This document shows positions 4,858 through 19,500 of a stretch of DNA of 64,000 nt, piece by piece (the first letter of the stretch is position 1; the number at the start of each line of letters is the position of its first letter). Origin of the DNA: Neisseriaceae bacterium (lineage in GTDB: Bacteria; Pseudomonadota; Gammaproteobacteria; Burkholderiales; Neisseriaceae). The position numbers were made by a program, and so were the translations under genes. Under the pieces are notes generated by a model that worked only from the letters and a program-made list of their open reading frames with translations, ran no database searches and had not been told where the DNA came from. Location of the stretch: contig CP046107.1 of NCBI GenBank assembly GCA_016864895.1, forward strand, positions 1,371,741-1,435,740, read 5' to 3'.

Positions 4858-5073
4858 ATGGCTACGATTATGGAAAGGGATGTCTTAATAGAAGCAGCTA
4901 GTTATACTGCCGCAGTTATTAGAAGATTTCCTATCCAAACAGATGAAACGAAAAGATTAGCAAAAGAAGCAGGAGAGATGGAATATAATTATTTATATTC
5001 TAAAGCTGAAGATTTGGATTTTTACAAAGAAGTAGAAATACTTAGAAAGATGAGAGTTCCTTATGACAAATAA
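4858..5073 (+). CDS. small protein upstream of zeta toxin, candidate antitoxin
   Basis: A 71-residue, charged, probably helical protein starting MATIMERDVLIEA, with a purine-rich ribosome site (AAGGAAGGA) just upstream. Its end overlaps the start of the zeta-toxin gene by 11 bases, the coupled layout normal for a toxin-antitoxin pair with the antitoxin first. It shows no helix-turn-helix, so it is more like a small epsilon-type neutraliser than the two-domain PezA. I see no direct family motif; the antitoxin role is inferred from position and size. Confidence 0.55.
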   Translation: MATIMERDVLIEAASYTAAVIRRFPIQTDETKRLAKEAGEMEYNYLYSKAEDLDFYKEVEILRKMRVPYDK

Positions 5074-5836
5074 AAAAGATATTACTGATTTTTTGGAAGA
5101 AGAATTAGATAAGATATCAAGAGAAATTTTAGAAGACAGTCAATATAATAAAATAAAATCTCAAACAAATCCTAAAGTCACCGTTTTAGGAGGGTTAGCT
5201 GGTTCTGGTAAATCAAATTATGTTCCCACATTAGAAAATACTTATGTAATTATCGGTGATAATTATAGAATGAGGCACCCCAGATTTGCAGAGATTAAAG
5301 AAGAATATGGTGATGATTGGGTGTTTAAAACTAATGATTTTGCTAAAGCGATGATTAAAAAAATATCTGAACAAGTAGTCAAAGACAAAAAAAACGTCGT
5401 TATTGAGGGTACTTTAAAAGATTATGAGGCTTCGGCCAATAGATTAAAACAATTCAAGGAAGCGGGTTATGAGACACATGCTCATATAGTTTTGTGTCAT
5501 AAGGATGTTGCTAAAGCAAGTACTGTTGATCGTTATCACAAAATGAAAGAATCTGGTTTGCCTGGTAGAGTGGTAATTAATGAGAAATTTCAAGAAATGT
5601 TAAATGGTTTAGCAAAAACAGCAGATAAAATTAAAGAATCTGGATTAGTCAAAAGTTTTACTATGTCAACTAGAAGAGATCTGAATCAGCTCATTATGAT
5701 TTATAAAGCTGATGATGCAAGAAGGCCTAGTGAAGTTATCAATGAAGAAATATCTAGACAACTTAGCCCTAAAGAACAAGAATTTGTCGAAAGGATAAGT
5801 GCGTGCCAAAGAACAAATGAAAGAAGACAAAGTTGA
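5063..5836 (+). CDS. zeta toxin family kinase
   Basis: A 257-residue P-loop protein. Zeta/PezT toxins phosphorylate UDP-N-acetylglucosamine and poison peptidoglycan synthesis. Walker A is GLAGSGKS (residues 44-51). It is followed by the zeta-like substrate motif IGDNYRMRHPRF (D66, R69) and a strand with acidic residue VVIEGT, in the usual order of the zeta fold. The gene is coupled to the small protein upstream. The frame is intact with a complete catalytic core, so it may be active; the module sits alone between two lanthipeptide-locus remnants and looks like an insertion. Other nucleic-acid or nucleotide kinases of this clan are the main alternative. Confidence 0.8.
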   Translation: MTNKKDITDFLEEELDKISREILEDSQYNKIKSQTNPKVTVLGGLAGSGKSNYVPTLENTYVIIGDNYRMRHPRFAEIKEEYGDDWVFKTNDFAKAMIKKISEQVVKDKKNVVIEGTLKDYEASANRLKQFKEAGYETHAHIVLCHKDVAKASTVDRYHKMKESGLPGRVVINEKFQEMLNGLAKTADKIKESGLVKSFTMSTRRDLNQLIMIYKADDARRPSEVINEEISRQLSPKEQEFVERISACQRTNERRQS

Positions 5837-8063: not shown

Positions 8064-9128
8064 ATTTTTTTAGTTGAATATTAATATTAGAAATAGATAA
8101 ATAGATTTATTGTTTTTAAAGAACATGTTATTTAATTATTTGATAACTAGATTCCCATTCATTTCTGGAAAAAACTACTATTCCATTAACGTTATCTCTA
8201 GTTTTCTTGAATATCTTTCACCAAAAGCACTTGTATTGTTCCCCCCTATTTCTGAGTCAGAAAATTTTTATGTTGTGGTTTTTCTTGTGTATATCCAATT
8301 AACCAAGAAAATAAAGAAGAAACATTATATTCATCAATATCTTTCGAATGAAATTTAGTTTTTTTAAACATTAAATTTTAGGGAACAAAACCTAGAATTT
8401 CCCTATTATCATTTCATATTGGTATTACTGTTTTCTAAAAATTCTATTTATCTCTATCTACAATGAATATCCTGACTTACAGTTATGCAATTTTTTGTGT
8501 CAGTGTAAAAGTTTACTGAACAAGTACAGCGTTTGAATTTTTTTTTATTAATAAGTTTCAAAAAATATCAATGGATGAATATAGTTTAGGTATACCAAAA
8601 TACAGGCGCTAATTAGAGAATTCTGGAAATTACAAAATTTAGGAGTGGGGGCATTCAACACCATTGAACAAAGAATTCTTAATTGGTCAAAAATAATTTT
8701 ATTTCTTTCCACGAATAAAAGCGAGAAATAAAGTAATCATGCTTAGACACTTGAGAATAGGCAATATTAGATAAATTGCCTTCACCAAATCTCTACTTAA
8801 ATTAGAGAAAAATCATACGGTTACGTATGTTGTAATAGATTTACAGGTAAATTAAAATGTCTAAACAAGACTAAAAATTAAATCATTCTGTCCTAGACTC
8901 ATCATGGTTAAATTTAGTTGTTTCCATTCAATACGGGAGTCAAGAGAACTGTCAATGCAATTGACTTCTACTTTGTTGCTTGTGGATTTAAGTAGGAGAA
9001 AATGATAAACATACTAAGGATTTTTACATTTATTTTTAAAGATTAATAATTATTTAAGTACAATTTCAGATCTTACTCCTTTGAAAAAAAAATAACCTGT
9101 GATAGAATACAAGTCTTTTCAAAGAAAA
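8064..9128. other. gene-poor stretch before the tRNA gene
   Basis: About 1 kb without a convincing gene. On the minus strand, 8120-8370 gives protein-like pieces in two frames (for example IDEYNVSSLFSWLIGYTQ and GGNNTSAFGERYS), so a decayed minus-strand gene is likely, but I do not recognise it. The plus-strand frame at 8110-8358 looks like its shadow. The region ends with the tRNA promoter. Confidence 0.35.
9081..9108 (+). promoter_or_regulatory. sigma-70-like promoter of the tRNA gene
   Basis: TTGAAA (9081-9086) and TAGAAT (9103-9108) separated by 16 bases, 20 bases upstream of the tRNA 5' end. Confidence 0.55.
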
Positions 9129-9204
<76 letters not shown>

Positions 9205-9336
9205 GTGTTAATAATAGATTTAACTCTTTTCTAAAATAATGTTGTTCTACATTTATTCTATTTTTTTTGTAAATTTTTTTTATGTTTATTTTGGCTCTAC
9301 TAGTTTGCCTTTTCTATTTCTAACATAGTGTCTTAG

Positions 9337-9819
9337 TGTCTTGTCATTTTCTCGCTTCCATGTTATAAAATTTTCTTTAATGATGAATTAGTAGCAAATT
9401 GTTTTCAAAAACATAAATTCTATAATTTTCTAAAGAGATATAATATTAACTGGAAGGATTATCTTTCTGCAAAATTATTACCAGATGATGGTCTATTTAT
9501 TATAGTTAGAAATACATTGTTTATAATTGAAATTAAATTTCAAAGTGTATCTGGCTCTACTGATGAAAAATTGCAGACTTGTGATTCTAAGAGGAAGCAA
9601 TATACAAAGCTTGTTCACAAAATAGGGTGGTGTGCTGGATATTTATATATTTTAAATTCTGAGTGGTTTGATAAGCCTAGATACAAAGATGTATTAGATT
9701 ATATTTAAAGCGTGGGATGTAGTTATCATTTTGGAGAGGTTCCTTTGTCTTGGTTTGGATTGCCCCATCAAAACCAGAATAGCTTATCAAAATTAAAGCT
9801 ATTTATCCCAATTAAGTAA
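9337..9819 (+). pseudogene. type II restriction endonuclease remnant, PD-(D/E)XK fold
   Basis: An open frame from 9337 without a start codon contains LLPDDGLFIIVRN followed by LFIIEIKFQ, the P-D ... E-x-K catalytic pattern of PD-(D/E)XK nucleases. The longest ATG-started piece is 9517-9708. It ends at TAA (9706-9708), but the same frame continues as coding-like sequence (SVGCSYHFGEVPLSWFGLP) to TAA at 9817, so the first stop is a nonsense mutation. The 5' end is missing and no methyltransferase gene is near. The exact restriction family is not recognised. Likely dead relic of a restriction-modification system. Confidence 0.65.
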
Positions 9820-9850
9820 TATTTCAATTGATATTTGAAAGGAGTCAGAT

Positions 9851-10192
9851 ATGAAAGAAAGAATTATAATACCGAGTAATCGTGATGATTATGAATATCC
9901 AGAATACTTTCAAGAAAAAGATGAAAGTTATCCAGATTATCAAATTAGATTAAGAAAACAAAAAGAAGAAGTATATAGTTCATTGCCTATAAATACAGAA
10001 GAAAGCGACAATAGAGTAGATGAGATAGTAAGTCATTTAGATCATGTGGACAGTATTCGTATGGCATATGAGCCTTTGTATAGAGAAGCTAGAGAAGCAA
10101 AGATGTATCATCGTCCCATAGAAGAAGTAAAAGAAAAGTACAGAAAAGCTGGGTTGGATTGGGATGAATTGGTAGGTAGTAAATGGGAATAA
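9851..10192 (+). CDS. hypothetical protein paired with zeta toxin, candidate antitoxin
   Basis: A 113-residue, strongly charged, mostly helical protein starting MKERIIIPSNRDDY, with a good ribosome site (GAAAGGAG, 7 bases upstream). The last 10 bases overlap the start of the large zeta-family gene, so the two are co-translated like a toxin-antitoxin pair. It has no recognisable DNA-binding motif and no similarity I can see to the 71-residue protein at 4858. Function unproven; the antitoxin role is inferred from gene order. Confidence 0.5.
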   Translation: MKERIIIPSNRDDYEYPEYFQEKDESYPDYQIRLRKQKEEVYSSLPINTEESDNRVDEIVSHLDHVDSIRMAYEPLYREAREAKMYHRPIEEVKEKYRKAGLDWDELVGSKWE

Positions 10193-11382
10193 AAATTAAT
10201 AAAAGAGGTTTCCCAAATGATAAGAACCTTGATAAAACGGAAGATAGGATTATTAAACAAGTTGAAGCCAACCCAGCTAAATATTTAGCTGATTATGACG
10301 AACTCCCTGATTTGAAAGATTATAACGGAAGGTATGTTAATTCAGATCAATTCAAAGAATTGTTTAGTGAATTTACGCAAAGTAAAGCCAGTAGAGCTTA
10401 TTATAATAATGCTGTACATAATTCGGCAGCTTGTTTATCTTCATTAAAATACGATGAGGTCCTAGCCAAAGATGATGGAAATAAAAATAAAGTTGTCATT
10501 GTTACAGGTATTCCAGGGGCAGGTAAAACAAAAAGTATTGATGAGGAAATTGATAAAAAGAATGTTAAATTGATTTTTGAAGGCCAATTATCCAATCCAG
10601 AAAATGGAGGTTTTGATAAAATCCAAAAAGCGTTGGATAAGGGGTATAAAGTCAAAATTGTAGTTGCACATCGGCCACCAGAGCAAGCATTGGATAATAT
10701 CTATCACCGTATTAGAACCTATGGACGTGGTGCTTCTATTGCAGCTATGGCAAATATTCAAGGCAATCTACCAGATGGATTAAATAAAATAAATAAAAGA
10801 TTTCCCAATCAAACTCAATTGGTTATAAAAAAATTAGATGGTTGGGATATGTCCACTCAAATAAAGGGTTGGGATAAATTAGAACAATTAAAAGAATTTG
10901 GGAATAGTAAAGAAATTAGAGATAAATTAAGTGATAAGCTTGTTAAAGATTATTTAGATGGAAAAATTGATGACAAGATATTTTTAAGTATTGCACCAGG
11001 AGGAAAGCATTTTTACATGCTTAAGGACGTTGGTAAGTGGGATAAAAAAGGGTGCTATACAATTAATCCAGAGTTTAGAGAGTTAGCTAGTGTTGAGTCT
11101 CTAAATTCATCTAGTAACGAAATGAAAGTGGCCTTATCCGATTCTTTTCAGGTCAATAAAGCTGAAAAAGAATATCAAAATTTATACAATAAACTTAGTA
11201 ATTTAGAGAAAAATAATTTTCTAGGATATGAAAAAGAGGTTAAAGATTTAACAAAGGATTTATCTCCTAATTTAAAAACAAAAGCATTACTTAATTTCTA
11301 TACAGAACAGCGAAAGCAAATAGAGAGTAAAGATAATACTATTGTCATGGAGCGTAGTCCTCAAACGGGAATGGAACGATAA
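10183..11382 (+). CDS. zeta-toxin-like P-loop protein with N- and C-terminal extensions
   Basis: A 399-residue protein. About 100 residues precede a P-loop VTGIPGAGKTKS (Walker A G109-T116, K115). The next strand carries FEGQL (E133), then a long zeta-like region (VVAHRPPEQALDNIYHRIRTYG) with several arginines and a 90-residue charged tail. The D-x-x-R substrate motif that normally follows Walker A in zeta toxins is not visible, so the substrate may differ or the kinase may be atypical. Coupled to the 113-residue gene upstream by a 10-base overlap; inside the tRNA-integrated segment. Zeta clan membership is likely; toxicity is inferred. Confidence 0.65.
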   Translation: MGIKINKRGFPNDKNLDKTEDRIIKQVEANPAKYLADYDELPDLKDYNGRYVNSDQFKELFSEFTQSKASRAYYNNAVHNSAACLSSLKYDEVLAKDDGNKNKVVIVTGIPGAGKTKSIDEEIDKKNVKLIFEGQLSNPENGGFDKIQKALDKGYKVKIVVAHRPPEQALDNIYHRIRTYGRGASIAAMANIQGNLPDGLNKINKRFPNQTQLVIKKLDGWDMSTQIKGWDKLEQLKEFGNSKEIRDKLSDKLVKDYLDGKIDDKIFLSIAPGGKHFYMLKDVGKWDKKGCYTINPEFRELASVESLNSSSNEMKVALSDSFQVNKAEKEYQNLYNKLSNLEKNNFLGYEKEVKDLTKDLSPNLKTKALLNFYTEQRKQIESKDNTIVMERSPQTGMER

Positions 11383-11465
11383 TGTATTTGAAAGAGATAA
11401 ATATGGAGACAAAGATTTTCCCAGATAATTTGGTAGAGATTTTTAATGCAAAGCTAGAAGAATAA
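11382..11465 (+). CDS. 27-residue ORF overlapping the zeta-like stop
   Basis: ATG at 11382 overlaps the previous TAA by one base; the peptide begins MYLKEINMETKIF and ends at TAA 11463. It may be a short coupled peptide, the N-terminus of a truncated gene, or chance. Confidence 0.2.
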   Translation: MYLKEINMETKIFPDNLVEIFNAKLEE

Positions 11466-11489
11466 TTTAAACATACTAGTAGAATTACC

Positions 11490-11630
11490 ATGAATGATAA
11501 AAAAGAAATTATAGAATTGTTTCCTGATGGGAAAGTGGTTGTTATTTGTAATAAAGATGGGAATACTATTAATGAAATCACAGCCTATATAGAACATGGA
11601 TATGAGAAGATTTATTGTCATGACAACTAA
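11490..11630 (+). CDS. 46-residue small protein before a truncated P-loop gene
   Basis: ATG 11490 to TAA 11628. The peptide (starts MNDKKEIIELFPDGK) overlaps the start of the next P-loop fragment by 11 bases, the same coupling seen at 5063. It may be the small partner, or the C-terminal piece of the partner, in a third zeta-type module. Not recognised by motif; the downstream partner is broken. Confidence 0.35.
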   Translation: MNDKKEIIELFPDGKVVVICNKDGNTINEITAYIEHGYEKIYCHDN

Positions 11631-11715
11631 ACCTATCGCTATATTTTTTATGGGGGCTAGTGGCTCTGGAAAGTCATCTATTAGAGATAGTATTGTTAAT
11701 AGTTTACTTGTTTAA
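11620..11715 (+). pseudogene. truncated zeta-type P-loop gene, N-terminal fragment
   Basis: ATG 11620 begins MTTKPIAIFFMGASGSGKSS, a clear Walker A (GASGSGKS), and stops after 31 codons at TAA 11713. After it the sequence switches to a minus-strand pseudogene, so the rest is deleted rather than frame-shifted. Very likely the N-terminus of a zeta/AAA-like kinase of a third module. Confidence 0.5.
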
Positions 11716-12049
11716 GGGGTAAAACGGTAAATATTTTTTTAGCTCATCAATATGTTCATATAAATCATCTGATATGATTTTATCCCAATGGATCTATACC
11801 CTCTCTTCTAGAAAATTTAGCGGCGGGTATAACATCAGAATCTCCAGCGAATAATATAATTTTTGAAATTTGTTTTTTTAAAGCAAGCGAACAAATGTCT
11901 AATCCCATTTTCATATCAACACCTTTTTGCTTATATTCAAGATATACATCATTTTCTGTTAGTTGGTCAAAAGTTATTTTCTTGTTAAATAAATCTTTTA
12001 ATTTATTTGTAGAAATCTTCCAATCTATGTTTATAAAGCTAAATTGATT
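11716..12049 (-). pseudogene. NYN-domain (LabA/DUF88-like) protein remnant
   Basis: Read on the minus strand from 12049: a start-less frame of about 89 codons contains YKQKGVDMKMGLDICSLAL and ILFAGDSDVIPAAKF. These match the conserved K-G-V-D...D and G-D-S-D...P motifs of NYN-domain (PIN-like) nucleases. The frame stops at 11780-11782, but a shifted frame continues with ISDDLYEHIDELKKYLP, the usual family C-terminus, so one indel has killed it. The N-terminus is cut off at the 48-bp tRNA-end repeat. Family call is by motif; cargo role unknown. Confidence 0.65.
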
Positions 12050-12097
12050 GGACTCATAATCCCTTGGTCGTAGGTTCGATTCCTACCAGACCCACCA
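12050..12097 (+). repeat. att-like direct repeat, copy 2 (displaced tRNA 3' end)
   Basis: Matches 9157-9204 at 47 of 48 positions, including the CCA. It lacks the 5' half of a tRNA, so it is not a second gene. It marks the right end of the 9205-12097 segment and the left end of whatever entered with the recombinase at 12166. Confidence 0.85.
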
Positions 12098-12165
12098 TTT
12101 TTGAGAAAGTGTAGGGTGTTTTTATTCTTAAGTTTATTTTGCAATTTTTTCTCTTTCTACATTAT

Positions 12166-12725
12166 CTATTTATTTACTTTTACTTTTAAATCTTGAAATC
12201 GAAATGGTGATTTTTTAATTCCTAATAATTTTCCGGCTTTATCTAGTCCGAGTCTAAAGACCGGATAACTTAGTAGATAGTGATTTTTTGTAAATAAAAA
12301 TATCCATGTGTGTTGACCTTTATAGATATAATTCATTTTACAACATCCTGAAGAGAACTAATCAATTTAATTCGTATTTGTTGTCCCTGTTTTATTCTAT
12401 TTCGCCCATAATTCACCATTTTCAATATCAGGTAACATTATTTCGAATTAGTTTTTTAGCTTATTCATAAAATTTTCAGAAACTTTTATCTGTCATAGGA
12501 ACATCACGTCCAGTTTTTTAAAACCTGTAACTGGGCGACAAGAATTTCTTTATCTGTCTAACCTACTCTCAAACTTTATTATAGGATTGTCTTGTTTTCT
12601 GTTGGCTCTTATTTTGTTGGTTTATTTTCTTTAATTTAAGTATGTTTGAATATTAATGCGTTGAATATCGTTTATTGTTGTAGGTGTGTTAATAAAGAAT
12701 TCTAAAATTTTCTCTAAATTTATGT
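12166..12725 (-). pseudogene. tyrosine recombinase (phage-type integrase) remnant
   Basis: Pieces in several minus-strand frames follow integrase order. Core-binding domain: ILEFFINTPTTINDIQRIN and later TNKIRANR. Linker: PVTGFKK and TGRDVPMTDKSF. Catalytic domain: IENGELWAK, KTGQQIRIKLISSLQDVV, and finally YPVFRLGLDKAGKLLGI with PFRFQDLKVKVNK, where integrases normally have F-x-x-R-D-L-R-x-K. The gene is broken by multiple frameshifts and stops and seems to have lost the first catalytic arginine segment. It lies 69 bases from the second tRNA-end repeat, where an integrase gene of a tRNA-targeting element is expected. Confidence 0.75.
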
Positions 12726-13116
12726 CTATTTATATCTCAAAAAATGAATCAGTAGAATGTATTATGATCAGTCATAAAACTTTAGTCACATGGGTTAAAT
12801 ACAATACATATTCGTAAGGTTGATTAATTTAAGAGATCAGCCATGGTTATAAATTATAAAAGTTAGAACTTGGGATGTTTATCTGATAGACTTTTAAGAG
12901 TGTTTTAGAAAATTCAGTGGGTAAAAAGTGACTTCTTTATAATACATGTCACTTATTTTAGTGAAGAGCAATAACAATCAATACAATATTTAGAAAAACT
13001 TCAATCACTATCTTTTAGTCAGAGTAAGAAGTGGATAGGGTAATAACAAGAGAAGTATCTGTGAACTAAATTTATAGGTTATACTCAGAGATATTTTGAT
13101 CTCGTGAGAAAAAAAC
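12726..13116. other. intergenic stretch before the GHKL-nuclease gene
   Basis: AT-rich DNA between the integrase remnant and the ATPase gene. I see no gene and no clear promoter; it presumably holds the promoter of the downstream gene. Confidence 0.4.
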
Positions 13117-15147
13117 ATGGAAACGAATTTAGAAGGATTGCTTAATGACTTAAAACTGCCAAAAAACAAAGCGTTAATCCCGTTATTTGAAGCTATTGCA
13201 AACAGTTTGGATGCTATTGATGAATGCGAGGATGGATGTGAGAATCACCAAATTATAATTAATTTTTTAGCAAATAATGATCTAATCACTACGCCGAGTG
13301 AAAATAATCGTTTTTCTATAATTGATGGTTTTTCTGTATCAGATACAGGTATGGGGTTAAATGCAAAAAACTATCAAGCTTTTAATGAGGCCTATACAAG
13401 GAGGAAAATTGACCTAGGAGGCAAAGGTGTTGGTCGATTCATGTATTTGAAAGTATTTGATAAAGTTGAAGTCGAAAGCTACTACAAGGAAGATAATCAA
13501 TATTTACTTAGAAAATTTAAGTTTAACAGGCAAGGAATTAGTCGAGAACCTTTGGATTATAATTGCAAGATTAATACAAGAAAAACTACTATTACTATTA
13601 ATAGAATTAAGGATGAGTATCGAAACTATTGGCAGAAAGAATTAGCAGTGTTTGCTGAAGAAATTATTCAACACTTTTTTATAAGATTCATTTTTAATAA
13701 ATATCCAAAAATATTCCTTAAGCATTTTAAAGGTGGATCAATAGAATTAACAGAAGAATTCAAGGAAAATTTATTGTTTCAAACTAGTGAAAGAAATTTT
13801 GACTTTGATAATTATTCTTTTTCAATATTGATTCACAAACAACAAAAATATACAAAGCAAGAATATACTTTTTGTGCCAGTGGCCGTGAAGTAGAAAAAC
13901 ATGAACTAAAATCATTGTTACCTTATTTCCCTGAAAAATTTACTGATAATCAAGGAGCTGATTATTACGTAAAAATTTATATTTCGGGGAAATATTTTGA
14001 TGATCGAGTTGAGAGAGAGAGAATAGATATATTATTTAAAGCAGCTGATGATAATGATACCACTTGCATTAATAGAGATGATTTTGAGAATAAATTAAGG
14101 ATGGAGCTCTTAAATGAATTTCAAGAACAATTAAAAGATATCAATGAGTCTAAAATAAAAAGAATTCAAGAATTTGTCAAAAATGAAGCTCCTGAATATA
14201 TATTTCTTTTACATGAAAAATATAGAACACGGCTAGAAAATGAAACATCGCCCTATGCAGATAATACAAAATTAGAGATACAGTTGCTACACATTAGAAG
14301 ATCTATTGAAGATACGGTTCGAGAAAAAGGAAAAAATATTGAAGCTAAAATGGATACAGTCGCTTATGAAGAATACAAAAAGGAGCTCGATGAATATATT
14401 GAAAATATTAATGATATAGGTAAAGCTGATTTAGCAAGGTATGTGGTTCATAGAAAAATAATTATTGATTTATTTGAAAAAAATCTTAAAATAAGAAAGT
14501 CGGGGAATAAGGACGGGGATTCCTACCAATTGGAAAGCGTATTGCATAATATGATATTTCCTATGGGGAAAACTTCTAGGGATATCTTCTTGGAACAACA
14601 AAATCTATGGATGATAGATGAACGTTTAAGTTTTCATTCTATTTTAACTTCCAATAAAAAATTGAAAACTATAGAAGGTTTGAACAGTGCATCTGATAAG
14701 GCGCCTGATATATTGATTAATTTTTATGATTCCCGAGTAGGGCTTTCTGAAGTATCTGAAAGCGGTACTAATCAGAGTGGATCTATTGTTATTATAGAAT
14801 TCAAAAGACCAGGTCGTGATGATTATAAACATCAAGATTCCTCAAGGAATCCGTGTCTTCAACTTGTTCAATACATATTGCAAATTAGGGATGGCAAGGA
14901 GGTAAGTATAGATGGAAGGCCAATTAAAATGGACAATCTTAGGTTTTATGCCTTTTTGATTGCAGATATTACGCCATCTTTAGAGTATATTTTAAAGATT
15001 GACTATAAGAAGATGACAGATAATGGTGGTTACTACAGATACATCGATAACATTAACACTTATATTGAAGTTATTTCTTATGACAAGCTATTAGAGGATG
15101 CAAAAAAGAGAAATGATATTTTATTTAAAAAGTTAGGGCTCAAATAG
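13117..15147 (+). CDS. GHKL ATPase fused to PD-(D/E)XK nuclease, candidate defence protein
   Basis: An intact 676-residue protein. N-terminal GHKL (Hsp90/MutL/MORC-type) ATPase: N box EAIANSLDA (N29), G1 box DTGMG (D76, G78), G2 box GGKGVGR (101-107). A mixed middle with a charged helical stretch near 340-440 follows. The C-terminal domain carries APDILINF (P530, D531) and VIIEFKRPGR (E561, K563), a PD-(D/E)XK nuclease core. MutL/MORC-type ATPases joined to or beside restriction-type nucleases are known from bacterial conflict systems. It stands alone next to an integrase remnant in a tRNA hotspot. Proposed action: ATP-gated DNA cleavage against invading DNA. The domains are seen; the role is inferred. 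Confidence 0.8.
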   Translation: METNLEGLLNDLKLPKNKALIPLFEAIANSLDAIDECEDGCENHQIIINFLANNDLITTPSENNRFSIIDGFSVSDTGMGLNAKNYQAFNEAYTRRKIDLGGKGVGRFMYLKVFDKVEVESYYKEDNQYLLRKFKFNRQGISREPLDYNCKINTRKTTITINRIKDEYRNYWQKELAVFAEEIIQHFFIRFIFNKYPKIFLKHFKGGSIELTEEFKENLLFQTSERNFDFDNYSFSILIHKQQKYTKQEYTFCASGREVEKHELKSLLPYFPEKFTDNQGADYYVKIYISGKYFDDRVERERIDILFKAADDNDTTCINRDDFENKLRMELLNEFQEQLKDINESKIKRIQEFVKNEAPEYIFLLHEKYRTRLENETSPYADNTKLEIQLLHIRRSIEDTVREKGKNIEAKMDTVAYEEYKKELDEYIENINDIGKADLARYVVHRKIIIDLFEKNLKIRKSGNKDGDSYQLESVLHNMIFPMGKTSRDIFLEQQNLWMIDERLSFHSILTSNKKLKTIEGLNSASDKAPDILINFYDSRVGLSEVSESGTNQSGSIVIIEFKRPGRDDYKHQDSSRNPCLQLVQYILQIRDGKEVSIDGRPIKMDNLRFYAFLIADITPSLEYILKIDYKKMTDNGGYYRYIDNINTYIEVISYDKLLEDAKKRNDILFKKLGLK

Positions 15148-16556
15148 AATTGTAATCTAATCAAAACGTTGGTATCCTCCTTTACCTAGAAAAGGGGGGG
15201 GTAATGTAGTGGTAGTTACTTAGAATGTTACCAAGCCTACTTTTTAATTAAAGAAGTAATAAAGGGTAATTAAATTATACTTAGTAGATTGCAACTAGTT
15301 GTAAATAAATGAGGCTATATGTGCAATTTACAGCAAGGTAAAATGAAATCAAGCTTAACAATCATGTGATTGCTTCTGCGGGGAAGTAGTCTCGTTATTA
15401 ATAATAATTTTGTCAGAATATAAATTGTCACAGGAAACGGAATAAGAATCCTGAAAGTGTGGGATATCTAACTGATACCATATTAAGAATTAAATCTAGG
15501 AAAATGTCTACAAAAAGAGTTGATTGAAAGAAAACTATTTGGTTTACTGAAGTATGGTATGGCTATGTATGTTGATAAATGATAAAAATTTAAGTAAACA
15601 GATTAATGACTTAATAGGGATATCGGAAGGATGTATCATATAGATGTAGGGCTGGTTAAGGGGATAGGTAACCCAGAACTGTTGACACATAATTTGGTAG
15701 ATTTTTTGTCAAATGATATCGTCAACTTTGAGATAAGAATTATTTACAGCGTCTCTTAGCTCAATCTTTCAAACTGTATGAGTTTCACTCTTTTTTTATA
15801 ATTCAATAAAATAACTTAATTTATTATCCTCTTTATGTGTTTGCGTGGTGCTGCTTTAAAACTTAAAACTTTTTACCCATGAGATGACTTACTAAAATTT
15901 TGGTTCATATTATTAGTTTGAATTTTTAATTTCTTAGGATTGTTTACTCTCCTAAGTCACAGATTATTCTATCTAAATATGGAACATACCCTTCTTTTTT
16001 TTATCTTAACATTTCAAGATTAATCGCTGTTGATTTATAACCTTTGTCCTGTATGCTCTCACTTTGAGCTTACATATAATCAGTTGTTTGAATTTAGCTG
16101 TACTTGGTAATTTTTATCCCAACCTTCATGATATACATATGATTGAAGGAGCAATTAAGTCATCAGATACTGCTAATTTTTCTTAACAAAATAAGCATAT
16201 TGATAAAGGAATTGATTTTTTTAATAGTAATTATAGTAATGGTGATCATTTAAAAGAACTGTAACTACTGATGGTTGAATTGTTGCAACATGACAAAGAA
16301 TTAAATAAGGCACTTAACCATGTATTAAACACCTTAGAAAAACCTGATTAATTAAATGAATAATATTGTAAAAAAATAACAGGTTGATGAATAAAGATTG
16401 TTAATCAAATTGGCTGATAATTATATTTGATGAAAATGAATACGGGTATCTGGAATGCAATTTTTTATCCAGTTTCCGGTACGATAGGTTCCAAAAGTGT
16501 TTTCGATAAGTAGAAATTTGTTAAAATGAAAAACTTTAAAACTTCAAGATAAGTGT
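15148..16556. other. 1.4 kb decayed stretch upstream of smc
   Basis: No intact gene. It includes a run of eight G (15194-15201) shortly after the GHKL-nuclease gene and a readable dead frame at 16088-16351. Other short frames (such as one containing GLVKGIGNPELLTHNLVDF near 15630-15760) look protein-like but are unrecognised. The right boundary of the inserted DNA is probably here; I found no third copy of the tRNA repeat. Confidence 0.4.
16088..16351 (+). pseudogene. unrecognised decayed coding sequence upstream of smc
   Basis: One continuous frame begins around LNLAVLGNFYPNLHDIHMIE. It is interrupted by two TAA codons without frameshift and ends HDKELNKALNHVLNTLEKPD before TAA 16349. The even amino-acid composition across both stops argues for a gene killed by nonsense mutations. 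Family unknown. Confidence 0.35.
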
Positions 16557-19500
16557 ATGCGCCTTAGTCAAATTAAGCTTTCTGGATTTAAATCTTTCCC
16601 TGACAATATTAATATTTCTGTACAGGGTAATATTGTGGCAGTGGTAGGCCCTAATGGTTGTGGGAAAAGTAATTTAATTGACGCTGTTCGTTGGGTGTTG
16701 GGTGAATCTTCTGCCAAACATTTACGTGGTGAAAATATGCAGGATGTGCTTTTCAATGGTACCAATAATAGAAAAATGGTGTCTAGATCTTCTGTGGAAT
16801 TAGTGTTTGATAATTCCAAATATTCTTTAAAGGGGGCATGGGGTCAGTATACAGAAATTTCAGTTAAGCGCATTCTTACTAGACAAGGGGATTCTAGCTA
16901 CTGGATTAATAATCATAAAGTTCGAAAAAAAGATATTACTGATTTATTCTTAGGAACGGGGTTGGGGGCTAGGGGATATGCAGTGATTGAGCAAGGAATG
17001 ATTTCCGAAATTATTGAGGCAAAACCAGAGTCTTTAAGAGCTTATATTGATGAAGTAGCAGGCATTTCAAAATATAAAGAACAAAGAAAAGAAACAGAGA
17101 ATCGTTTAAAATTAACTCAAGAAAATTTAGGAAGAATTAGTGATTTAAAGCAGGAGCTATGGAACCAATGTCAAAAACTTGGTACTCAAGCTAAAAAAGC
17201 TCAAAAATATCAGAGGATTGAATCTGAATTAAAATATATTCAAAATATGTTAGTAGCCTCTCAGTTACGTATTACTTTGGGAAAGTTAGAAGGTTATCAA
17301 CAGAAACAGAATCAAGAAAAGGAAAAACTACTCAAAATAGAGCAATCCATTAAATCAATAAAAGAAGATAATTATCAGATTCAGTTACAAGAGTATGATA
17401 TACAATCAAAAATAGATGATATACATCAGAAAATATCAAAAATAAATGAAGAGGTTATTGGTTTACAGACAGCATTAAAATTTAAAGAAAAAGAATTATT
17501 TCGTATTCAAACAGAGAAAAAAAATATTCATTTGGAGTTGCAAGAATTAAACAAAACCATACAAGACAACGAGTCTAGTTTATCCCAATTCAATATTCTC
17601 TTAGAAGAAAAAGAGTTAATATTTGAAAACTTGGTCAGTGAATTAAGTCAATTATACACCCATTTGAGCAAGATTGAACAACATTTCGAGCAACAAGAGA
17701 TTCTATATAATGGGGTAAAATCAGAAATTCGTCATAATAAACATACTTTACAGGCAAGGAATGAGTCTCTTCAAAGAAATTTTCTTGAAATACAAAAACT
17801 AACAGAACAATTACAACGCCAAGAGCAAAAAACACAAGAGAAAGTATTATTGGATTTAACTGAATATGAAACTAAGTTGAAAATATTATTAGAATCTTTG
17901 ACAGAAAAGACAGAACATATAGATCGTCTAGACAAAGAATACTTGAATTTACAAGTCAGTATAAAAGAAAATAATGAGCAGATTCATAAACATAATGATG
18001 AATTAATTGCTTTGGACGTGGAATTAAATATTTTGAACCAACGTCTGCAAAGGATTAAAGAAAAACATAATGGTTTTTGGAATCAATTTCCCGAATTACC
18101 ATCATCACCGTTGTGTGAACTTTTGACAATAAGGGATAAATGGGAAAAGGCTTTGAGTATTTATTTAGGTGAACGATTACTTGCTCGAGTATGTGTAATA
18201 ATTCCCTTTATCCCAACTGAAATAAAAAACCCTGCTGTTTGGATTAATCAATTACCACCTGAAATGTCCACCTCGGTTACAGAAGACTCGATAATACAAT
18301 ATGTTGCTTGTAATGATGAAATAATGCCATTGATCAAGTTGTGGTTAGGAAAGGTTAGATGTGTTAACTCATTAGAAGAAGGATTACGAAAACAGTCTTT
18401 ACTACGAGAGGGCGAATTATTTTTAACACCCGATGGAATCGTAGTTGATAAGTATGCTGTATATTTAGAAGGTGAAAATCAAGAAGACTTAGTTTTAAAT
18501 TTGCAGAATCACTTAAGTGTATTGAATCCTAAAAAAGAGAAATTAGTACAGGTCATTACTCGTTATAAGCAACAATTGTTTGAACTCAAAAAGAAACAAG
18601 AGTCTTTATTAGCAGAGAAAAATCAAGTCCAATATCAAAAAGAATACATTCAAGATCAACTGACTAAAACCAAACAAGTGATCGTAGAAAGTAAAGCTAA
18701 AAATGAATTACAACAGCAGTTTCTAAAGGATGTACAAGCTGAAATACACAATTTAAAAAAACAAAAAGAATTATTACAAGCCAGACAAAAGGAATTAGAA
18801 TCAGAAGTAAGTCATGTTGAAAGCATTTTAAATCAAGATAATATCAGAATTATCCAGATTGAAAAAGACTATTTATATTTAAAAAAGTCTATTAAGGATG
18901 GGCAACAAGATTTGTTAATATGCGAAAAAAACAAAAATCAGCTAGAGTTAGAATTGACGAACCTAAAAAATTGTATTGGAAATGTTAGTAAAAATTTAAA
19001 TTCGGCCAGACAAAAAACCATTGCTCTTACCCAAAAAAATGAACAATTGCAGGTCGAGGATACTTTATCCATTGATGATTATCAAAAAAGAATTATACAA
19101 TTATCTGATAATAAACAAAGGATCGATGTAATATTGGCTTCTCTAGAAGAAGAGCTCCAAATGTTACGTACTCAAAAGAATGCAATGCAATCATCTTTGG
19201 CGCAAAAAGAAATCATGAAAAGTGTTATGGAACGTGATATACATGCCTATGAGTTAAAAATTCAACAACAAACAATTTATAAAAATCAATACATGGAGAC
19301 CTTGCAGGCAAAAAAACTGAATGTATCTGAGTTAGTGGCATTAGATGATCAAAATGATTATAATGTGCAGGAGTTATCCGATAAGGTCTCTTTACTAACG
19401 GAGCAGTTAAAAGCACTTGGTACAGTTAATTTAAGGGCTGTAGGTGAGCTAACAGAATTAGAAGAGCGTTATCATTTGTATCGTGATCAATACGAAGATG

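Follow-up and report, generated by a model that had tools for sequence, protein, structure and literature searches.

A GHKL ATPase-PD-(D/E)XK nuclease gene of a Neisseriaceae bacterium: a divergent member of the paraMORC3/GHKL-type Shedu family with a probable role in anti-phage defence

The locus

The window, a stretch of 64,000 nucleotides of contig CP046107.1 from a Neisseriaceae bacterium, has between rpoD and smc a variable stretch that harbours the gene studied here. Its landmarks are the following:

9129..9204, + strand: tRNA-Met (CAT), upstream edge of the variable region; single copy in the sister species G001
12050..12097, + strand: att-like copy, 48 nt long, of the 3' half of tRNA-Met (9157-9204); the gene starts 1.0 kb further on
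13117..15147, + strand: intact coding sequence of 676 aa with the order GHKL ATPase, middle (S5-like) domain, helical linker and PD-(D/E)XK nuclease (open reading frame; 111-member full-length alignment; AlphaFold2 pLDDT 90.3)

The gene starts with ATG and runs over 676 codons with no internal stop. Its G+C content (0.30) and codon-position pattern are like those of its neighbours, and the next gene downstream, at 16557, is smc. A preliminary description of this DNA placed the gene in a tRNA hotspot. The 3' half of tRNA-Met is indeed duplicated nearby, but the gene lies outside the repeat-bounded segment: the two repeats are 2.9 kb apart and enclose a zeta-toxin operon (9851-11382) together with debris. 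Carriage of the gene as cargo between the repeats is ruled out by its position beyond the second one. A second, tandem insertion that left no recognisable right end is possible. The sister species has one tRNA-Met followed by about 3.2 kb to the smc region, and the gene is absent there. A second smc match in that assembly (L164, G001:C9:18677-19291) contains in-frame stops, and its smc looks broken or misassembled.

An integrase remnant had also been claimed beside the gene. It is not recovered: none of the 45 six-frame fragments of at least 36 aa from the gaps 8064-9850, 11383-13107 and 15148-16556 matches an integrase in Pfam, or in PHROGs for the fragments selected for that search. The minus-strand ORFs 9164-9313 and 12034-12156 are spurious, being translations of the tRNA 3' end (e.g., 'GRNRTYDQGIM'). 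The segment between the tRNA repeats has att-like boundaries and no detectable integrase.

The neighbours are decayed, as first described. The flanks carry NYN, PD-(D/E)XK and zeta P-loop fragments, as well as a doubtful YoeB-like fragment at 15610, for which plasmids hold no relative. The NYN-domain protein fragment (11783-12082, minus strand; Pfam E 4e-6, phrog_5783 E 7e-31) overlaps the duplicated tRNA segment. The truncated PD-(D/E)XK protein at 9337-9708 is a weak match and probably a dead restriction enzyme; over 107 aa it has 69% identity with a stretch of N. gonorrhoeae that carries no annotation. The zeta P-loop fragment (11466-11722) is a weak match too. The region also holds a complete zeta gene coding for 257 aa (5063-5836; Pfam E 2.5e-33), while in the zeta operon a 399-aa zeta-like gene follows an overlapping 113-aa ORF, possibly its antitoxin, with relatives on Neisseria and Moraxella plasmids.

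Gene fragments on both sides could suggest that the gene is itself an inactive relic decaying like its surroundings. Its 676 stop-free codons and the conservation of every invariant residue of the family, detailed below, make this reading next to negligible. It is plausible that such intactness, already pointed out in the preliminary description, reflects selection. From the end of the zeta gene at 11382 to smc at 16557, no methyltransferase, helicase or partner ORF adjoins the gene. The earlier account of a protein acting without partners agrees with this and with the varied neighbours found in relatives (see below).

Domains and active sites

The protein is divided into four parts, whose coordinates and main motifs are:

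13117..13611, + strand: N-terminal GHKL ATPase domain, residues ~1-165 (invariant motifs; Foldseek matches to Hsp90, GyrB and SMCHD1; best profile match MLH1, E 0.0085)
13189..13203, + strand: GHKL motif I, E25 to N29 (both invariant in 111 sequences; in Vibrio homologues the residue aligned with E25 is E27)
13342..13356, + strand: GHKL motif II, D76-x-G78-x-G80 (invariant)
13417..13437, + strand: GHKL motif III/ATP lid, G101-G-K-G104-V-G106-R107 (G101, G104, G106 and R107 invariant)
13612..14046, + strand: middle/S5-like transducer domain, residues ~166-310, with invariant R302 (Foldseek alignments over ~440 columns; MLH1 profile positions 208-314)
14074..14490, + strand: helical linker, residues ~320-458, including a long helix 417-458 (DSSP on the AlphaFold2 model)
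14509..15144, + strand: C-terminal PD-(D/E)XK nuclease domain, residues ~465-676 (hhalign to SduA, E 9.7e-6; SduA_C Pfam matches in relatives; Foldseek matches to NucC, McrC and Shedu)
14533..14535, + strand: E473, first acid of the E-D-ExK site (invariant)
14602..14625, + strand: NLWMIDER family signature, residues 496-503 (W498, D501 and R503 invariant), used as a search pattern
14707..14709, + strand: D531, second acid of the nuclease site (invariant)
14797..14805, + strand: E561-F-K563, ExK of the nuclease (invariant; aligned with the ExK of Shedu)

Conservation was assessed in two alignments, one of the window protein with nine homologues from plasmids and one phage, the other with 110 homologues found in species genomes and in viral contigs, giving 111 full-length sequences. 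Neither alignment has any variation at E25, N29, D76, G78, G80, G101, G104, G106, R107 and R302 of the ATPase and middle part, nor at E473, H477, W498, D501, R503, D531, E561 and K563 of the nuclease part. The motifs are not due to chance, because they are invariant across sequences down to 23% identity. By homology, the motif I residues would provide the general base and the Mg ligand. The reading frame and the motifs first listed (N29, D76-x-G78, GGKGVGR, P530-D531 and E561-x-K563) are all present, and their catalytic residues are invariant in the homologues. E473, accompanied by H477, is an additional invariant acid of the nuclease that completes the E-D-ExK site.

Predicted structure and relation of the nuclease to Shedu

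The AlphaFold2 model computed from the 111-member alignment has a mean pLDDT of 90.3 and a pTM of 0.77. Foldseek comparison with the PDB retrieves the ATPase modules of Hsp90/HtpG, TRAP1, GRP94, GyrB and SMCHD1 with E-values of ~1e-10 to 1e-13, and the Hsp90 and SMCHD1 matches extend over ~440 columns that encompass both the GHKL and the middle domains. In the profile search against the PDB the best match is MLH1, at positions 208-314 of the profile. This match and the combination of a GHKL ATPase with a nuclease resemble the architecture of MutL, and could point to a housekeeping or repair protein, such as a mismatch or topology factor, with no part in defence. The nuclease, however, is of the PD-(D/E)XK type and not of the MutL C-terminal type.

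Modelled separately, the nuclease domain reaches a pLDDT of 88.3. Foldseek ranks 1 to 8 are all PD-(D/E)XK nucleases (NucC, McrC and Shedu, the latter with 8ti9 at rank 8), at weak E-values of 0.004 to 0.11, and the assignment for this reason relies on sequence evidence too. The profile of the nuclease aligns with that of Shedu SduA in hhalign with an E-value of 9.7e-6 and a probability of 83%, ExK on ExK, for a remote similarity of 19% identity over 146 columns. SduA_C is the commonest Pfam match among relatives: 9 of 92 hit it, the best at an E-value of 1.7e-4, and HsdR N-terminal families come next. Models and profile comparison thus place a PD-(D/E)XK nuclease around residues 473-563, as expected from the preliminary description.

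The window protein alone gives nothing above threshold in Pfam, SduA_C included, nor in NCBIfam, PADLOC or PHROGs, and PF14082 finds no match in the gene's own genome even at an E-value of 10. The family was assigned through alignment-based comparison only.

Among the fold matches of the nuclease the nearest is NucC, which acts as an effector in CBASS and breaks down the chromosome of the host. The likeness raises the possibility of an abortive infection effector, in which the ATPase would sense infection and the nuclease attack host DNA or RNA so that the cell is killed or arrested. The many toxin genes of the region fit such a role. The likeness to NucC is nevertheless weak and at the level of the fold only, and the behaviour of a related protein, presented below, speaks for another outcome.

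Homologues and their distribution

Searches with tblastn find homologues in 57 plasmid records, 50 of them at 80% coverage or more, and in one phage genome. One signature pattern identifies 448 encoding places in a species-level genome collection. In viral contigs, a scan with the single sequence finds no relative and two patterns drawn from the alignment find 42 loci. Among the pattern matches listed, nearly all are full length and have the architecture of the window protein. The homologue of phage vB_RanS_PJN03 (ON245412.1, 2485-4509) is encoded beside an integrase; its annotation as N-acetylmuramoyl-L-alanine amidase appears to be wrong. Three homologues from viral contigs (L132, L134 and L136) have shorter open frames of ~590-620 aa and form the deepest branches of the midpoint-rooted tree; they may represent a compact subfamily.

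The distribution is patchy. In the host family 6 of 83 genomes are positive at an E-value of 1e-20, several of these matches being remote, and 228 Vibrio genomes contain three full-length members. Such sporadic occurrence is at odds with a housekeeping or repair function, as are the presence of homologues on plasmids and viral contigs and the absence of the gene from the sister species, the corresponding site included. Taken with the type of the nuclease, these observations leave a repair role highly improbable.

The named rows of the tree (111 sequences) are mostly Bacteroidota (32) and Pseudomonadota (24), in line with the published description of paraMORC3 (see below). The window protein groups with homologues of Azotobacter, Methylibium, Rhodocyclaceae and Syntrophobacter with an SH-aLRT support of 100. 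This five-member clade is set apart from the Vibrio-type branch. Within it the window protein has a long end branch and is at most 41% identical to the other members, ~41% being the identity to its nearest relative.

Genomic neighbourhoods of relatives

Genes of defence systems are recurrent neighbours of the homologues. The closest relative in the tree, from Azotobacter, is encoded directly 3' of KwaB of a Kiwa system. Relatives on plasmids adjoin a type I restriction-modification set together with a classical Shedu gene (L009), CBASS-type ThiF, Mov34 and SAVED genes (L008), AbiEi/AbiEii (L007 and L012), SIR2 and an N-6 methylase with XamI (L010), a type I restriction-modification system (L011), or TIR and ABC-three-component genes (L014). 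At the genome loci, the 140 immediate flanking proteins match 445 PADLOC families at an E-value of 1e-10, compared with 3 families for 36 housekeeping genes of the window used as control, a contrast to be read qualitatively, since the PADLOC models are redundant and the sets are of unequal size and from different organisms. The commonest Pfam domain among these 140 proteins is the type I specificity domain. The homologues are found in accessory, defence-rich surroundings and are patchily distributed, rather than residing in the core-genome contexts that would have spoken against the defence reading of the preliminary description.

Relation to paraMORC3, VcSduA and other systems

The paraMORC3 proteins were defined in 2008 by Iyer, Abhiman and Aravind as a combination of GHKL and S5 domains with a C-terminal restriction endonuclease-fold domain carrying E-D-ExK; they are sporadic, occur mainly in Proteobacteria and Bacteroidetes, and some of them are stand-alone genes whose neighbours are not conserved (PMC2292703). 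The window protein has the intact N-terminal ATP-binding motifs (invariant residues and Hsp90/GyrB/SMCHD1 folds), the S5-like domain after GHKL (~440-column Foldseek alignments and MLH1 profile) and the C-terminal fold with E473, D531 and E561-x-K563, whose top Foldseek matches are PD-(D/E)XK nucleases, though weak. Compared through the published description, the two show no material difference. The novelty implied by the first account of the gene does not hold, stand-alone paraMORC3 proteins having been described in 2008 (PMC2292703).

A protein of like architecture was studied experimentally in 2025. VcSduA, encoded in VSP-II of V. cholerae WASA, is a GHKL-DUF4263 protein termed GHKL-type Shedu. 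It confers protection from Drexlerviridae on E. coli and from X29 on V. cholerae, and this effect is abolished by E27A or K557A (PMC12137116). The authors of that study assign it to Shedu type I-D (PMC12137116). Like the window protein, it is a single protein with an N-terminal GHKL ATPase and a C-terminal PD-(D/E)xK nuclease found in variable genomic regions. The counterparts of its E27 and K557 in the window protein are E25 and K563, and the Vibrio homologues L148 and L167 carry exactly E27 and K557. The case that the window family and VcSduA are of one kind is strong but indirect, built on described architecture and residue positions. The Vibrio set has only three full-length members in 228 genomes, and none of them is equated here with VcSduA.

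Cultures carrying VcSduA are protected at all tested MOIs, which its authors read as direct restriction with survival of the host (PMC12137116). This is opposed to host killing and renders an abortive infection mechanism quite unlikely for the window protein. The stand-alone anti-phage effector proposed in the preliminary description, in turn, finds support in VcSduA, a demonstrated stand-alone anti-phage nuclease (PMC12137116).

Other systems are more distant. Shedu SduA of B. cereus (PDB 8ti8/8ti9; Shedu effector 8ps4) is likewise a single-gene defence nuclease whose profile matches that of the nuclease domain, but classical SduA has another N-terminal domain and the sequence similarity is remote. 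Prokaryotic MORC and paraMORC restriction-modification operons share a GHKL ATPase acting with a restriction-type nuclease; they differ in that they also encode separate nucleases, an SFII helicase and, in many cases, methylases, and no such gene adjoins the window gene.

Proposed function

The window protein is a divergent member of a described and partly tested family, not a new system. We favour, with a probability of about 0.86, the hypothesis of a nuclease of the paraMORC3/GHKL-type Shedu ('type I-D') kind that works as a single protein against phages and possibly against plasmids too. Homology makes it very probable that the gene truly serves defence, without being a new kind of system: it belongs to a widespread described family of which one member blocks phages. 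Direct restriction of phages requiring both active sites would be transferred to it from VcSduA on the same grounds. For the window protein itself we infer a dimeric clamp, a trigger, DNA as substrate and an activity of its own. The GHKL ATPase and the middle domain would build an ATP-gated dimeric clamp on DNA. Some feature of invading DNA would trigger ATP binding and closure of the clamp, and the long helical linker would then move the two C-terminal PD-(D/E)XK domains into cutting position. Phage DNA would be cut and the host cell would survive.

What separates the window protein from VcSduA is its place in the five-member clade, at a distance from the Vibrio branch; given this separation and the identity of ~41%, its trigger and target may differ from those of VcSduA. 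That this clade is a functionally separate branch with a trigger of its own, which might be plasmid or conjugative DNA or else the topology of DNA, appears unlikely.

Members of this kind can escape Pfam, NCBIfam and PADLOC 2023, even though the species-level genome collection has relatives at more than 440 places. With the window protein, a small genome of low GC content and a divergent branch of the family join the known range of this recently validated single-gene defence nuclease.
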